A stretch of DNA of 64,000 nt from Clostridiales bacterium (GTDB lineage Bacteria; Bacillota; Clostridia; Christensenellales; Aristaeellaceae), in assembly GCA_015056365.1 (NCBI GenBank), contig SVGM01000004.1, positions 1 to 64,000 on the forward strand, in the 5' to 3' direction. A model generated the notes under the pieces. The model saw nothing but the letters and a program-made list of their open reading frames with translations, had not been told where the DNA came from and searched no databases. Below, piece by piece: positions 28,982-53,928 of this stretch. Position numbers and translations under genes: made by a program. Positions within the stretch are counted from its first letter, which is position 1. Each line of letters begins with the position of its first letter.

Positions 28982-29867
28982 AGCGTTTCCTCCAAACTTC
29001 CTGTACTTTTCTGAGCAAAAGATGATAGCGTTCCAGCCGTTGTTTTCCCAGTTCTCCATTCTCGGCAGCCTCAAGGACGGCACAGCCCGGCTCGCTGAGA
29101 TGGTAGCAGGGAGAAAAACGGCACTGGCCCTCATAGGGCGCAAAATCCGGATAATCGTCTTTCAGATGAATGGGCTCCAGACCTTCCCATGGTTCCAACA
29201 GACTGAAACCCGGCGTGTCCAGCACCTGATATTCGCCGCTGAACAGCAGTTCTGCGTGGCGGGTGGTATGTCTGCCTCGGCTGATCTTTCGGCTGATCTC
29301 GCCGGTCTTGAGTTCAAGGCCGGTGGCTGCGCTAAGCAGCGTGCTCTTGCCAACGCCGGACTGGCCGGCAAAGCAGCAAATCCCCTGGCGAAGCAGTGCC
29401 TGAAGTGCCTCCAGCCCCTCGCCCGTCTGGGCGCTGACCGCCAGCATCGGAACGTTCAGCGAGGCATACTCCCGTTGCACTTCATCAAATACGCTTTGGT
29501 CCAGATCGCACTTGTTGACCACGATCGCGGGAGAAATCCCCTGGCGGAAGGCCAGCACCAAAAGCGTATCCAGCAGCAGATAATCCGGCGCAGGCTGCGG
29601 CGCGATCACCAGCAGCACATAGCGGATATTGGCCACTGGCGGACGAAGCAGCTCGCTGCTCCTTGGCAGGATCTCCTCCACCCATCCATGTTCGTCCCCC
29701 ACGCCGGGTGTGTAGCGAATCTGATCCCCCACCATGGGTGTCAGACGCTGCTTACGAAACTTGCCTTTGGCTCTGAGCACATGGACCTCTCCGTCCAAAC
29801 CGCGGGCGTAATACAACCCGCCGACGCCCTTTACGATGACGCCCTGTTGGGCGTTTCCTTCCGACAA
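28974..29867 (-). CDS. rsgA: Ribosome small subunit GTPase RsgA
   Basis: A circularly permuted GTPase that helps 30S maturation. OB-fold at the N terminus, NKCDLD (G4) before GQSGVGKSTLL (G1), DTPGF (G3), and a C-terminal zinc site with CRFSPCYHLSEPGC. I prefer the TTG at 29867, which lies 8 bases after AGGAGGG. ATG 29909 would overlap prkC and has no clear site. Confidence 0.93.
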   Translation of the reverse strand: MSEGNAQQGVIVKGVGGLYYARGLDGEVHVLRAKGKFRKQRLTPMVGDQIRYTPGVGDEHGWVEEILPRSSELLRPPVANIRYVLLVIAPQPAPDYLLLDTLLVLAFRQGISPAIVVNKCDLDQSVFDEVQREYASLNVPMLAVSAQTGEGLEALQALLRQGICCFAGQSGVGKSTLLSAATGLELKTGEISRKISRGRHTTRHAELLFSGEYQVLDTPGFSLLEPWEGLEPIHLKDDYPDFAPYEGQCRFSPCYHLSEPGCAVLEAAENGELGKQRLERYHLLLRKVQEVWRKRYD

Positions 29868-40631: not shown

Positions 40632-41804
40632 ATGAAAGATTTTGTTTTTCAGAATCCAACCCGTATCCATTTTGGCCGTAATGCCATGGAAAGCCTGAGT
40701 GGTGAAGTGGCTCGCTACGGAAAGCGTGTGCTGCTGGTTTATGGCGGCGGTAGCATCAAGCGCATCGGCGTGTACGACGCCGTCATGGCCCAGCTGCAGG
40801 CAGCTCAGGCCCAGGTATGGGAGCTGTCCGGCGTACAGCCCAATCCCCGGCTTTCACTGGTGTATCAGGGCATTACGATTTGCCACGAGCAGAACATTGA
40901 GCTGGTGCTGGCCGTGGGCGGCGGCAGCGCCATCGATACGGCCAAGGCCATCGCCAACGGCGCATGCTACGATGGCGACGTCTGGGACCTGTTTGAAGGA
41001 AAAGGCTCCAATACCGCCGTGCTTCCGCTGGGCGTGGTGCTGACCCTGCCTGCCGCCGGCAGCGAGATGAGCAACTCCAGCGTGATCACCCGGGAGGAAG
41101 ATATGTGCAAGCGCGGCCGCAGCACGCCGTTCAACTTCCCCGCCTTCTCCATTCTCAACCCCGAGTACAGCTTCTCCCTGCCTCCTTTTCAGACGGCTTG
41201 CGGCATCGTGGACATCATGGCGCATATGATGGAGCGGTACTTTACCATGGTTGAGCATGTGGAGCTGACGGACAGGCTCATCGAAGGCGCGCTGAAAACC
41301 GTGATCAATAATGCCCCCATCGTTATGGAGAAGCCGGATGATTATGACGCCCGCGCAGAGATCACCTGGGCAGGCGCTCTTGCGCATAATACGCTGCTGG
41401 ACACCGGCCGCATCGGCGACTGGGCCAGCCACAAGCTGGAGCATGAGCTTAGCGCCCTGTACGACATCGCTCACGGCGCCGGCCTGGCGGTGGTATTCCC
41501 GGCCTGGATGAAGTTCGTGCTGCCACGCGGCGGTGCAAAAAAGCTGGCGCAGTTTGCTATCCGCGTGTTTGATGTGCCGGAAACTTTTGGCACAGAAGGC
41601 GCGATTGCTGCCGAGGGCATCCGCAGGCTGGAAACCTTCTATCGCTCCCTTGGGCTGGTGACCACGCTCCACGAAATGGACATCGACCAAAGCCGCATCC
41701 CGGAAATGGCGGAACGCGCTGTGAGGATGATGGGCGGAAAACTGGGCGGATTTGTTCCGCTGGACGAAGCCATGGCTCAGGAAATCTACCGGCTGGCGCT
41801 GTAA
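40632..41804 (+). CDS. Iron-containing alcohol dehydrogenase (butanol dehydrogenase-like)
   Basis: 390 residues of the group III alcohol dehydrogenases, resembling BdhA/YqhD. The cofactor loop is GGGSAIDTAK; the metal ligands lie in DIMAHMME and ASHKLEHELSALYDIAHGAG. It reduces aldehydes to alcohols in fermentation with NAD(P)H. AGGAGGG precedes ATG 40632. A Rex gene is present at 49.4 kb, but no clear Rex site is seen before this gene. Confidence 0.93.
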   Translation: MKDFVFQNPTRIHFGRNAMESLSGEVARYGKRVLLVYGGGSIKRIGVYDAVMAQLQAAQAQVWELSGVQPNPRLSLVYQGITICHEQNIELVLAVGGGSAIDTAKAIANGACYDGDVWDLFEGKGSNTAVLPLGVVLTLPAAGSEMSNSSVITREEDMCKRGRSTPFNFPAFSILNPEYSFSLPPFQTACGIVDIMAHMMERYFTMVEHVELTDRLIEGALKTVINNAPIVMEKPDDYDARAEITWAGALAHNTLLDTGRIGDWASHKLEHELSALYDIAHGAGLAVVFPAWMKFVLPRGGAKKLAQFAIRVFDVPETFGTEGAIAAEGIRRLETFYRSLGLVTTLHEMDIDQSRIPEMAERAVRMMGGKLGGFVPLDEAMAQEIYRLAL

Positions 41805-41857
41805 GCCATGAAAAACGGACCGACGGGGTATTTCCCCTGTCGGTCCGTTTTTCATGG
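41804..41857. terminator. Very strong terminator after the alcohol dehydrogenase
   Basis: An almost perfect inverted repeat of about 20 bp with A's in one arm and T's in the other (AAAAACGGACCGAC with GTCGGTCCGTTTTT). It isolates the alcohol dehydrogenase from the MutS2-like unit, whose promoter begins 17 bases later. Confidence 0.9.
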
Positions 41858-41873
41858 CTGCTTTTCTTGCGTA

Positions 41874-41902
41874 TTGACACGCTGGATTTGCCATGCTATA
41901 AT
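41874..41902 (+). promoter_or_regulatory. Consensus SigA promoter of the MutS2-like gene
   Basis: TTGACA (41874-41879), exactly 17 bases, TATAAT (41897-41902), with TGC before the -10. One of the strongest promoters in the window. Transcription should begin near 41909, about 207 bases before the coding region. Confidence 0.92.
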
Positions 41903-41908
41903 CAGGCA

Positions 41909-42116
41909 TCAATTTTCGGAGGTGCTGGATGTCGGTTCGGTAAAGAACGCTGTATGCGTCAGTGAACCATAGCGGTTGCACGACCGCTTGTTTGCTTTGC
42001 ATATTTGTTTTTACCACCGTCAACAGGCACTTTTTTTCGTGCCAAAAAACGATCATGGTAATAACGGGCGTTCGCTCTCCCATCGTGCAAACTGACACAG
42101 ACAGGAGAGATACCCC
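41909..42116 (+). promoter_or_regulatory. Long structured leader of the MutS2-like gene, putative attenuator
   Basis: It contains a four-codon ORF (41929-41943) and alternative pairings: GGTTC (41934-41938) with GAACC (41964-41968); GTGAACC (41962-41968) with GGTT-G-CAC (41974-41981); AGCGGT (41971-41976) with ACCGCT (41983-41988), the last followed by T-rich sequence. Near the end, CTCTCC (42075-42080) is complementary to GGAGAG (42104-42109), the ribosome binding site of the main gene. The layout suits ribosome-sensitive control; function is inferred. Confidence 0.6.
41929..41943 (+). CDS. Putative four-codon leader peptide MSVR
   Basis: ATG TCG GTT CGG TAA begins 6 bases after GGAGG (41918-41922), only about 20 bases from the predicted transcription start. 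Far too short for a functional protein; translation itself would be the signal, as in the leader ORFs of erm and ABC-F resistance genes. The codons overlap the 5' arm of the first leader helix. Confidence 0.5.
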   Translation: MSVR

Positions 42117-44051
42117 ATGGATCAACGTGCACATTTGAATGCACTTCATTTTGACATCATTCTCGAACAACTCAAAGAGCACGCCCTGAGCGAAAGCGCC
42201 AAGGAAGCCCTCGCTGAGCTGATGCCTTATCAAAATGAAAGCATCGCCAGGGTGAGAATGCTGGAAACCACCTCGGCCCGTGCGCTGCTGGAAACCTGCG
42301 GCACGCCGCCCCTGGCGGCGATGGACAACGTCCGCCAACACCTGCACCATGCTCAGATGGGCGGTATGCTGTTGCCCTCGCAGCTTTGCGAAGTGGCACG
42401 CTTTGTTTCCGCGTGCAAACGCATGGCTGAATACCTGAAACGCGGCGAAGGCTGCGGCCCGACCTGTGCACATATCGGCGTGTATGGCCGCGGCTTTATG
42501 GAACTTTCTGAGCTGCGAAGCGAGATAGAAGCAGCCGTCAGCGAAGAGATGGTATACGACAATGCCTCCCCCGCCCTGCGGGACATCCGCAGAAGGCTGG
42601 CGCAGCAACATGCCCAGATCAAAGAGAAACTGGAACATATCCTCAAGACCAAAAAGGCATACCTTGCAGACAGCTATATCTCCATTCGCGGCGATCATTA
42701 CGTGCTGCCGGTCTTGCGGCGATATAAAAACGAATTCGGCGGAACGGTGATCGAAACTTCCTCCAAAGGCAGCACGCTGTTCATCGAACCCACGGCCATC
42801 CGATCCTTGCAGGAGCAGCTGAACCTGCTATCTCTGGAAGAGGACAATGAGGTACGCAAGATCCTCTACACCCTCAGCGGCGCAGTTGCGGATGCTGCTC
42901 ATGCCATCCAGACAAATATGCAGTTGATGGAACAGCTGGATATTCTCTTTGCCAAGGGAAAGTACAGCGCAGCACTCAACGCCCGGAAAGCGGAGATCAG
43001 CGGCGGAAAGACGCTGCGTATCGTTCAGGGAAGGCATCCGCTTCTGGATGCTGAGACCTGCGTGCCGCTGGACGTTACCCTGGAGGAAGGCTGCGATGGA
43101 ATGATCATCACCGGCCCCAACACAGGCGGAAAGACCATTTCCATCAAGACAGTAGGCCTGCTCTCCGCCATGGCTCAAAGCGGTCTGCACATCCCCTGCG
43201 GCGAAGGCTCCCTGATCCCCATGCACGACCGCTACCTTTGCGATATCGGCGATAGTCAGAGCATCTCCCAAAATCTGTCCACTTTTTCCGGCCACATCAC
43301 CAATGTGCTGGATATCCTCAAAACCGCCAGCCGGGACAGCCTTGTTTTGCTGGACGAACTGGGAAGCGGTACCGACCCTGCCGAGGGCATGGGCATTGCC
43401 ATTGCTGTGCTTGAGGAACTGTGGCTGAGAGGCTGTATGTACATGGTCACTACCCACGACCCCAAGGTCAAGGATTATGCCGCCAGTACGCCCCGTATTC
43501 TGGCAGCGCGCATGGCCTTTGACAAGGAGAGCCTACGTCCGCTGTACCGCCTGGAAATGGGAAAAACCGGCGACAGCTGCGCGCTCTACATCGCTCAGAA
43601 ACTGGGGATGCCGGAGGAGCTTTTGTCCCGTGCCCAAGCCATCGTATACGGCGGCGGGCAATGGCAGGCGCCCGACAGACAAACGCCCGCCTTCCTGCGC
43701 CCGGGAAGCTCGCTGGTGCGTCAGAAGCTGGAGGATGGCTCTGACGAGTCAAAGAAGCGTTTCTCTATGGGCGATTCAGTGATCGTGCTTCCGGACGGCG
43801 AACAGGGCATTGTTTTCCGCCCAGAGGACGATATGGGCATGATGATCGTTCAGGTCAAGGGAGAAAAACGCACCGTCAACCATAAGCGGGTCAAGCTTCG
43901 GATCCCGGCCAGTGAGCTTTATCCGCCAGACTATGATTTCTCTATCATCTTTGACAGCGTTGCCAACCGAAAAGCCGCCCATGTGCTTGGCAAGCGCTAC
44001 GACGCAGAGGCAACCATTGTTTATACGGAAGGAAACAGCAAGGAGGAATAA
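42117..44051 (+). CDS. MutS2-like ATPase lacking the Smr domain
   Basis: 644 residues. A MutS2-type core with lever/clamp helices, then the ATPase: Walker A GPNTGGKT, Walker B LVLLDELGSGTDPAEG and a His switch TTHDPKVKDYA. After the ATPase there is a KOW-like beta region (FSMGDSVIVLPDGEQGIV). The C-terminal Smr nuclease domain of MutS2 (normally reaching about 780 residues) is absent. B. subtilis MutS2 (RqcU) acts on collided ribosomes; a role on ribosomes is therefore possible, as is one in recombination. The next gene is 2 bases downstream. Confidence 0.88.
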   Translation: MDQRAHLNALHFDIILEQLKEHALSESAKEALAELMPYQNESIARVRMLETTSARALLETCGTPPLAAMDNVRQHLHHAQMGGMLLPSQLCEVARFVSACKRMAEYLKRGEGCGPTCAHIGVYGRGFMELSELRSEIEAAVSEEMVYDNASPALRDIRRRLAQQHAQIKEKLEHILKTKKAYLADSYISIRGDHYVLPVLRRYKNEFGGTVIETSSKGSTLFIEPTAIRSLQEQLNLLSLEEDNEVRKILYTLSGAVADAAHAIQTNMQLMEQLDILFAKGKYSAALNARKAEISGGKTLRIVQGRHPLLDAETCVPLDVTLEEGCDGMIITGPNTGGKTISIKTVGLLSAMAQSGLHIPCGEGSLIPMHDRYLCDIGDSQSISQNLSTFSGHITNVLDILKTASRDSLVLLDELGSGTDPAEGMGIAIAVLEELWLRGCMYMVTTHDPKVKDYAASTPRILAARMAFDKESLRPLYRLEMGKTGDSCALYIAQKLGMPEELLSRAQAIVYGGGQWQAPDRQTPAFLRPGSSLVRQKLEDGSDESKKRFSMGDSVIVLPDGEQGIVFRPEDDMGMMIVQVKGEKRTVNHKRVKLRIPASELYPPDYDFSIIFDSVANRKAAHVLGKRYDAEATIVYTEGNSKEE

Positions 44052-44053
44052 CC

Positions 44054-44629
44054 ATGATTCGAAATGATCTCACCATCCGTCCCGAAACCCCGGCGGACTA
44101 TGCAGCAATCGACCAGCTGGTACAGCGCACCTTCGCCCAACACACCGGTTACTCCGATGGTGCTGGCGAGGTAGCTTTCATCCATGAGATTCGGGAAAAA
44201 CCGTACTACGTACCCGAACTGTCTCTTGTGGCGATTTTGGATGAACAGATCGTTGGCCATGTGATGTTCTCCCGCCTGCCCCTTTGCCCCACGTCCCAGT
44301 GGGGAGGCGATATGGAAGCGCCCACCGAACTGCTGGTGATGGGTCCTGTGGCCGTGCACGCAGATCGGATTCATCAGGGAATTGGCGAGACCATGATCCG
44401 CCAGGGGCTGGAACGGGCGCGGGCATACGACTGCAAAGGCATCGTCGTTGAGGGCGACTGGCACTATTACAGCCGCTTCGGCTTTGAAACCTCCGCCGAC
44501 CGCGGGATTTACGCTACCAGCGGCTATCCCCTTCAAGAGCCTCGCTGCATGATGATTCAGGAAAACGCGCCCGGTAGGCTGGAAGGGCAGAAAGGGTATA
44601 TCGTGTTTGCCATGTACGAAAACGCGTAA
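44054..44629 (+). CDS. GNAT family N-acetyltransferase
   Basis: 191 residues; the acetyl-CoA loop is seen as VHADRIHQGIGETMI (Q/R-x-x-G-x-G/A), and GRFGFET-like SRFGFETSADRG follows. It resembles YhbS-type acetyltransferases. The substrate is unknown. It lies 2 bases after the MutS2-like gene, so both share the regulated leader. Confidence 0.88.
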   Translation: MIRNDLTIRPETPADYAAIDQLVQRTFAQHTGYSDGAGEVAFIHEIREKPYYVPELSLVAILDEQIVGHVMFSRLPLCPTSQWGGDMEAPTELLVMGPVAVHADRIHQGIGETMIRQGLERARAYDCKGIVVEGDWHYYSRFGFETSADRGIYATSGYPLQEPRCMMIQENAPGRLEGQKGYIVFAMYENA

Positions 44630-53737: not shown

Positions 53738-53928
53738 ATTGCAAGCCCCAAAGTGCCGCTGCACCCTATTTTTTCACCCGCTATGTTAAGCAGGCCGGTG
53801 CTCTACCTCCACCTTCTGCCGTCCCCTGGCGCACAATGCGGGGGCATGACATCCAATGAACGGACCCGAGCTCCGTTTTGTGAAATGTGGGTAAAAATAG
53901 GATACTGGCGCACACTTCAGGTAACCAT
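53703..53928 (-). ncRNA. Unidentified structured RNA or leader upstream of cmk
   Basis: The whole 316-base gap between cmk and nadR has no gene. A predicted transcript of about 225 bases starts near 53928 and ends at the terminator. CCTATTTTTACCC near the 5' end pairs with GGGTGAAAAAATAGG near the 3' end; AAGTG pairs with CACTT outside it, and inner hairpins are visible (ACGGA/TCCGT, GGTG/CACC, a CCCC/GGGG stem). TGTGCGCCAG occurs twice. It matches no T-box, S-box, FMN or cobalamin element I know. Size, layout and long hairpin are compatible with a 6S-like RNA or an unknown leader. Confidence 0.6.

Follow-up and report, generated by a model that had tools for sequence, protein, structure and literature searches.

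The gene for a shortened MutS2 protein (MutS2′) in the window, as we call the whole stretch of 64,000 nucleotides analysed here, is preceded by a leader RNA that we take, with fair confidence, to be a ribosome-sensing attenuator. It would represent a new family comparable to the cplR and hflXr leaders, would be relieved by stalling on a very short upstream open reading frame (uORF), and would drive proteins with which translation survives. The main evidence is a conserved uORF together with conserved helices, common to several gene families in gut Clostridia. The class of mechanism, in which a ribosome on the uORF refolds the leader, is likely, and the sensed ribosomes are probably stalled by a drug; we infer the stalling, its inducer, the direction of the switch, the function of the proteins and their role in drug tolerance.

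Layout of the leader and of its gene in the window

The window belongs to a 2.6-Mb genome assembly (G000, contig C13). The leader spans positions 41903-42116, between the promoter and the MutS2′ gene, and the region contains the following features.

41874..41902, plus strand: sigma-70-type promoter, TTGACA-17-TATAAT with TG before the -10 box; 12 of 12 consensus matches, 17-nt spacer
41918..41922, plus strand: Shine-Dalgarno (SD) sequence of the uORF, GGAGG; a strong SD
41929..41943, plus strand: uORF ATGTCGGTTCGGTAA, coding for MSVR and a stop; consensus start-(x)-[S/T]-V-X-TAA in 63 of 63 leaders
41945..41951, plus strand: 5′ strand of P1, GAACGCT, right behind the uORF stop; family permutation test
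41953..41957, plus strand: 5′ strand of P2, TATGC; by eye, beside and not within the tested columns
41971..41988, plus strand: hairpin P3, AGCGGT-TGCACG-ACCGCT (AGCGGT 41971-41976, ACCGCT 41983-41988); family covariation test
41977..41983, plus strand: TGCACGA, P3 loop strand of a long-range loop contact; 7 of 7 pairs in the window
41999..42003, plus strand: 3′ strand of P2, GCATA; by eye, beside and not within the tested columns
42026..42043, plus strand: small inverted repeat GGCAC...GTGCC flanking a T run; region of the relatives' terminator, weak here
42067..42073, plus strand: 3′ strand of P1, GGCGTTC, immediately 5′ of the anti-SD; family permutation test
42075..42109, plus strand: hairpin P5, CTCTCC 42075-42080 with GGAGAG 42104-42109, covering the main SD; folding
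42083..42089, plus strand: TCGTGCA, partner of the P3 loop, within the loop of the anti-SD hairpin; family covariation test
42117..44051, plus strand: MutS2′ gene, 644 aa; MutS2 paralog with its ATPase motifs kept and a predicted C-terminal SH3/KOW-like barrel, without Smr
44054..44629, plus strand: GNAT acetyltransferase, second gene of the operon; Pfam

The consensus promoter, the strong SD with its tiny ORF, and the pairing of CTCTCC with the main ribosome binding site had been described in the original prediction, and all are confirmed here. One such promoter was found in positions 41500-42400, against a mean of 0.3 in shuffles of this region. Just before it, a terminator-like long hairpin (41808-41855, 20 pairs counted) ends the upstream alcohol dehydrogenase gene. 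The only Rfam match in the window was a 6S RNA (53741-53926, minus strand; 64 bits, exceeding the gathering score), and the leader gave no match to Rfam in six loci at E up to 1. Judged by sequence, the leader is new relative to known attenuators, having no Rfam match and new targets.

The downstream gene is MutS2-like, as had been proposed: its product scores 560 bits against TIGR01069 (MutS2; cut-off 400), with a match that stops at model position 511 of 790. Pfam at E ≤ 0.001 recognised MutS_V only, and no Pfam match to an Smr domain was obtained. The AlphaFold model (36 sequences; mean pLDDT 81, pTM 0.69) predicts a MutS2 core and an ATPase followed by a small beta-barrel at residues 554-596, and in this model there is no space for an Smr domain after the barrel. 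The best Foldseek matches were MutS2 proteins, namely 9a5o_B (a YabR-MutS2 model, E 1.7e-43), B. subtilis 7qv3 (7qv3_w, E 1.6e-34) and T. maritima 9kce. MSSS (PF20297, the MutS2/Smr-associated SH3 domain) matched 7 of 36 relatives weakly (best E 0.0015) and did not match the window protein; a sequence search of the C-terminal domain against solved structures returned one meaningless match. The length of MutS2′ is 631-654 aa across 61 members. Because genome G000 also encodes a full-length MutS2 (790-aa open frame, G000:C6:68219), the window gene is a second, shorter copy. The search for RsgA (TIGR00157) matched this genome once, within the window itself, at 29016-29735 on the minus strand.

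Distribution of the leader and of the genes behind it

A protein search with the window MutS2′ covered 40 genomes and gave a high-scoring match of this type in 11 of them, the window included; the ten relatives are 50-71% identical. Leader and uORF were present at all ten MutS2′-type loci with upstream DNA (the window and nine relatives), and a TTGACA/TATAAT-like promoter precedes the leader at these loci by eye, except at L007. A covariance model (R1) of the leader's first 94 positions, built from ten leaders, matched 84 of 300 genomes of the family at E ≤ 0.1. Strong matches (E < 1e-5) numbered 63, in 61 of the 300 genomes; they include the ten leaders used to build the model, the other 53 being newly gathered. 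Sixty of them stand before MutS2′ (the gene is broken early in L088 and cut by the contig end in L103), two before a GNAT gene (L075, L080) and one before a GNAT-GNAT-methyltransferase fusion (L098). Inspection of the matches in the 300 genomes extended to E values of 0.01. Among the seven weak ones with E 0.0019-0.0048 (L114-L120), a uORF of the expected kind was seen by eye only in L118, a locus within the genus (E 0.0048) whose uORF, MSVRS-stop, precedes an RsgA-like GTPase gene.

The model was also scanned against 396 genomes of the order and 391 of the class. Twelve loci with weak matches were inspected, of which nine look like chance and three are real: L131 and L133, before a methyltransferase gene, and L151, before an RsgA-like GTPase gene. 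The other weak loci of L131-L174 were checked by a regular expression alone, which reported L133, L157 and L164 and is not exhaustive, since it missed L131 and L151. A DNA pattern composed of the SD and the uORF, which misses the window's own type of leader, was run over 84,980 genomes and detected 50 stretches, many on contigs already counted by the covariance model. Most of these (37 of 50) lie before MutS2′, one in Ruminococcaceae bacterium D5 and two with the ORF cut or broken; four lie before an RsgA-like GTPase gene (one broken), two before a methyltransferase gene, one before a GNAT gene and three at loci ending before a gene, and three are apparently unrelated (L183, L187, L189). In viral sequences the pattern gave one match, apparently unrelated. 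A plasmid search with the RsgA-GNAT module gave three weak coding matches, and by eye the leader is absent upstream of the two examined (H1, H2). Among the titles and abstract openings listed by a literature search, with preprints and most subscription journals outside its scope, none dealt with this leader or with a MutS2 that lacks Smr and has a uORF.

Four unrelated gene families share the leader: Smr-less MutS2 paralogs, RsgA-like GTPases, GNAT acetyltransferases and SAM methyltransferases. In each of the genomes G008 and G313 the leader occurs twice, before different genes, and the partner genes are reshuffled. RsgA-like genes are combined with GNAT in L181 and L205 and with a methyltransferase in L214, while L006, a locus available without its upstream sequence, unites MutS2′, GNAT and a methyltransferase that is 35% identical to that of L131. 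The window's second gene encodes a protein 62% identical to the GNAT that immediately follows the leader in L075. In G010 and in G911 the leader-linked RsgA-like gene is an additional copy, and another RsgA in the genome scores higher; the RsgA paralogs in L228, L229 and L230 have no leader by eye. GNAT acetyltransferases and methyltransferases are kinds of enzymes common among resistance genes. Together with the ribosome-linked RsgA-like proteins, such targets fit the sensing of a drug or of ribosome stress.

The leaders of L181, L205, L191 and L151 are nearly identical by eye and stand before RsgA-like genes (the gene of L191 is broken), in records whose labels include Eubacteriales, Peptococcaceae and Bacillota. 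This near identity under differing taxon labels suggests recent transfer. ORFs beside the RsgA-GNAT module of L181 were also considered as recombinase candidates; two gave no Pfam match and the other two matched an AAA ATPase and an SEC-C motif, so that mobility is not claimed.

Conservation of the reading frame and of the pairings

The uORF was sought in the first 50 nt of each leader as a start codon, 0-n codons, Ser/Thr, Val, any residue X and any stop, and it was present in every one of the 63 strong leaders; its stop is TAA in all of them. Ser/Thr is preceded by a single residue (E, L, D or A) or, as in the window, by none. The starts called by script are TTG in 56 leaders and ATG in 7, and five of the TTG-start leaders (L107, L109, L111-L113) have an in-frame ATG one codon upstream. 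GAGG was found in 62 of 63 leaders and ends 5-9 nt 5′ of the start in each of these. The Ser/Thr codons are TCG (41), ACT (16), TCT (3) and ACG (3), and the Val codons are GTT (55), GTG (4), GTC (2) and GTA (2), with synonymous changes only. The residue X is free (Leu 25, Arg 17, Gln 16, His 2, and one each of Cys, Pro and Ala). Since all changes of the Val codon are synonymous and the distance to the stop is fixed, we read the uORF as being under coding selection for [Ser/Thr]-Val at a set distance from the stop; base pairing also constrains its bases. The RsgA-type leaders mostly have Ile in place of Ser/Thr before Val (five of six: L151, L181, L191, L205 and L214), with Ser in L118. The motif is a candidate for a new stalling context. 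By eye, the peptides ESVEIVL and QSVL, in frames upstream of RsgA-like genes without the leader (L230; L226, 1361-1420), are reminiscent of the uORF motif, a resemblance that may be due to chance.

Five pairings (P0, P1, P2, P3 and the loop contact) are supported across the family, and P1, P3 and the loop contact are plain in the window. P2, P3 and the loop contact were evaluated together in an alignment (A3) of 60 full leaders, with the pairs set from the row of L010. In this test 91.3% of 959 cells were paired, against 24.5-47.6% when the partner was slid by one to three columns. Cells with double changes numbered 59 as compared with 14.4 after shuffling (0 of 500 shuffles as high), and they occurred at 11 of the 16 pairs tested. 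For P2, 78.0% of the cells were paired and all five pairs had double changes; it is fully paired in 41 of 60 rows, the window row being unpaired at the tested columns, and the TATGC/GCATA of the window is a shifted match recognised by eye. The loop contact joins the P3 loop to the strand just 5′ of the main SD. It had 96.9% of its cells paired, with all seven pairs formed in 51 of 60 rows, the window included, and its most variable pair is A-U in 30 leaders, G-C in 21 and G-U in 9, with zero mismatches. The strand TGTTTGCT is conserved after P3.

P1 pairs the bases after the uORF stop with the strand just before the loop contact. Its segments scored 17.9 on average with their own partner and 13.2 ± 0.57 after permutation (0 of 10,000 as high; 24 distinct 9-mers), and within the 40 nt searched the best site lay 7-13 nt before the loop contact in 21 of 24 cases. 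P1 is individually unconvincing in L088, L090, L102 and L108, and in the window leader taken by itself the pairing is equalled by 22% of foreign segments and 4% of shuffled ones. P0 pairs the Val-X-stop bases of the uORF with the strand after P2 and scored 16.6, compared with 13.9 ± 0.54 when permuted (0 of 20,000; 20 distinct segments from 66 leaders); it is not distinctive in the window leader, where 15 of 19 foreign segments pair equally well. Both permutations used distinct segments only, and shared ancestry remains in these statistics.

The original prediction had named the conservation of the ORF and of helices in related leaders as its check, and both were found, the uORF throughout the strong leaders and several helices among the aligned ones. 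It had further set out three mutually exclusive pairings. That of GGTTC (41934) with GAACC (41964) is not conserved, GAACC following the uORF in 3 of 60 aligned leaders only (the window, L002 and L004), nor is that of GTGAACC (41962) with GGTTGCAC (41974), as the window alone among the 60 leaders has both strings. The third, AGCGGT with ACCGCT, stands as the conserved RNA hairpin P3, with 98.3% of its cells paired and all four tested positions paired in 58 of 60 rows. The leader proposed earlier is real and its scope had been underestimated, P1, P2, P0, the loop-loop contact and the other target genes having been missed.

Proposed switch, known systems and alternative readings

We propose that a ribosome translates the four- or five-codon uORF, which ends in [Ser/Thr]-Val-X-stop and whose bases, with those just past the stop, would pair with downstream strands (P0 and P1, next to P2 and P3). 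A ribosome held there with Val-tRNA in its P site, the likeliest cause being inhibition of the peptidyl-transferase centre or of early elongation, would shield the uORF together with the P1 strand. Strands released in this way would then refold, relieving premature termination (clear terminators exist in relatives) and/or unmasking the main ribosome binding site, and the operon would be expressed. Through its products translation would survive, with MutS2′, which lacks Smr, being an ATPase on stalled ribosomes and the GNAT, methyltransferase or RsgA-like partners serving in other operons. The ribosome-status switch suggested earlier is retained in kind, as a tiny uORF with a refolding leader, but is mostly wrong in its details: two of its three exclusive pairings are not conserved, and its supposed terminator is probably none. 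More tentatively, and at somewhat less than even chances, a single family of drug-sensing leaders, with fMet-(x)-[Ser/Thr]-Val-X-stop as its key, might have been passed among the four effector families and might mark unrecognised inducible ribosome-rescue or drug-resistance genes of anaerobic gut Clostridia; the Smr-less MutS2′ would then be a "MutS2r", a counterpart of HflXr that gives resistance by splitting ribosomes.

HflX is a GTPase, whereas MutS2′ is an ABC-type ATPase. According to PMC6310831, the Listeria leader rli80 of hflXr (lmo0762) has its uORF, of 14 aa with an RLR motif, within an anti-antiterminator, and the product of hflXr, homologous to a ribosome-splitting factor, gives protection from lincomycin and erythromycin. 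The present leader resembles it in that an attenuator uORF would control a homolog of a ribosome-splitting factor; the drug response is proven for hflXr (PMC6310831) and putative here. In the cplR leader a uORF of three codons is sequestered by a 5′ hairpin, there are also a terminator and a masked SD, and transcription attenuation is joined to translation attenuation; the uORFs of the cplR/vmlR/vgaL-type ARE-ABCF genes are MR[I/M], MIN, MK[L/Q] and MAGN (PMC10201436). Our leaders share with this type the very short uORF, a 5′ hairpin with the uORF, a terminator (clear in some of them) and a masked SD. They differ in the uORF M(x)[S/T]VX-stop, in the long-range P1 and the loop-loop contact, in their targets (MutS2′, RsgA-like, GNAT and methyltransferase genes) and in a drug response that is putative. 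Stalling by chloramphenicol prefers Ala, and less so Ser/Thr, before the P-site residue, as stated for phenicols and oxazolidinones in PMC11832420. With this rule the Ser/Thr-Val of all 63 strong leaders agrees, but the Ile-Val of five of the six RsgA-type leaders does not.

Attenuator leaders with tiny uORFs have on many occasions led to resistance genes, as with erm, ABC-F and hflXr. To judge by sequence, the leaders described here look like a new ribosome-sensing family whose targets are unusual and whose induction and function are presumed. With such a family, inducible genes for ribosome protection that are so far unsuspected could be found by sequence, and the part of MutS2-type splitting factors in drug resistance could be put to a concrete test.

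MutS2′ is like B. subtilis MutS2 in its core and ATPase fold followed by a predicted SH3/KOW-like barrel, and unlike it in ending after the barrel, without Smr. According to PMC10897456, B. subtilis lacking MutS2 is hypersensitive to chloramphenicol, tetracycline and erythromycin; a Walker B mutant is also sensitive, and Smr and KOW mutants are so only modestly and to erythromycin. Deletion of Smr strongly reduces the binding of B. subtilis MutS2 to ribosomes (same source), so that a paralog without Smr may act differently from MutS2; given the modest effect of the Smr and KOW mutants, it could still work, which is not assured. MutS2 splits collided ribosomes (PMC10897456), and this accords with a stall that is intrinsic or that reports general ribosome status (collisions, aminoacyl-tRNA shortage, or slow termination at X-TAA), with MutS2′ in feedback and not a particular drug. 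We regard this as unlikely, though with an appreciable chance. The invariant TAA would suit it, but the residue before the stop is free, so that a stall at termination would not be peptide-specific, and the leader also drives GNAT and methyltransferase genes, for which a drug fits better than collision repair alone.

By the usual footprint, a ribosome whose P site holds Val would shield some 16 nt counted from the start of the Val codon, and with them most of the 5′ strand of P1. Compact terminators after P2 were found in 14 of the 66 leaders scanned (L102, L107-L113, L131, L133, L181, L192, L208, L214), none of them in the window's clade. Because P3 is retained while these 14 relatives carry a separate compact terminator downstream, P3 is probably not the terminator that it had been supposed to be. 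With no compact terminator in the window's clade, a switch there, if any, is more likely to act at the ribosome binding site or via the loop contact. The leader L079 (G136:C35) is longer by some 160 bases in the stretch from P2 to the T run and is otherwise like its relative L076.

Masking was modelled with ViennaRNA, without pseudoknots, the ribosome covering all positions up to 16 nt from the Val codon, in 18 of the 66 leaders (13 of the 14 with a clear terminator and five of the commonest type). It lowers terminator formation in 12 of the 13 clear-terminator leaders, often slightly: by half or more in five (L107, L110, L111, L131, L214) and by 0.01-0.29 in seven. The exception is L112, where the called hairpin, a longer variant, became likelier. 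In folds that stop short of the terminator's 3′ half, masking increases the pairing of the 5′ half with upstream bases by no less than 0.1 in 8 of the 13 leaders and decreases it in two (L109, L110). In all five leaders of the commonest type (L010, L064, L073, L082, L085), masking raises a terminator-like hairpin from 0.00 to 0.81-0.99, the opposite of induction. The P0 partner lies within the loop of this hairpin in some of them, and our guess is that a pseudoknot could let both coexist. The main SD, placed automatically by script with a few doubtful placements, is mostly paired (mean unpaired fraction 0.15 in its local context, as against 0.24 when the flanks are shuffled, with the local value the lower one in 45 of 60). 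Masking leaves it covered, the mean unpaired fraction being 0.19 free and 0.18 masked in 60 leaders folded without pseudoknots; for the window the predicted fraction is 0.00, free or masked. The unmasking of the ribosome binding site that the proposed switch may involve is absent from this pseudoknot-free folding.

The sign obtained for the commonest type, and a window clade devoid of compact terminators, are what would be expected if in these two groups the leader worked in reverse, a stall on the uORF meaning off, or solely at translation. We hold this to be improbable: pseudoknot-free folds exclude crossing pairings (P1 versus P0, and the loop contact), and an opposite logic in sister clades is unlikely given the common architecture.

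It is likewise improbable that the core (P1, P2, P3 and the loop contact) forms a riboswitch-like RNA that binds a metabolite or a drug, the uORF merely coupling translation. The compact fold with its loop-loop contact, the conserved TGTTTGCT strand and the covering of the main SD by P5 would be in keeping with a ligand; against this, the uORF is never missing from the strong leaders and its Val codon changes synonymously, its codons themselves lie in a covarying helix (P0), the targets are ribosome factors and modifying enzymes with no evident metabolic pathway, and no Rfam match was obtained. An ordinary conserved 5′ untranslated region with chance hairpins and no regulation is hardly credible in view of the covariation, the conservation of the uORF and the occurrence before four gene families in several lineages.
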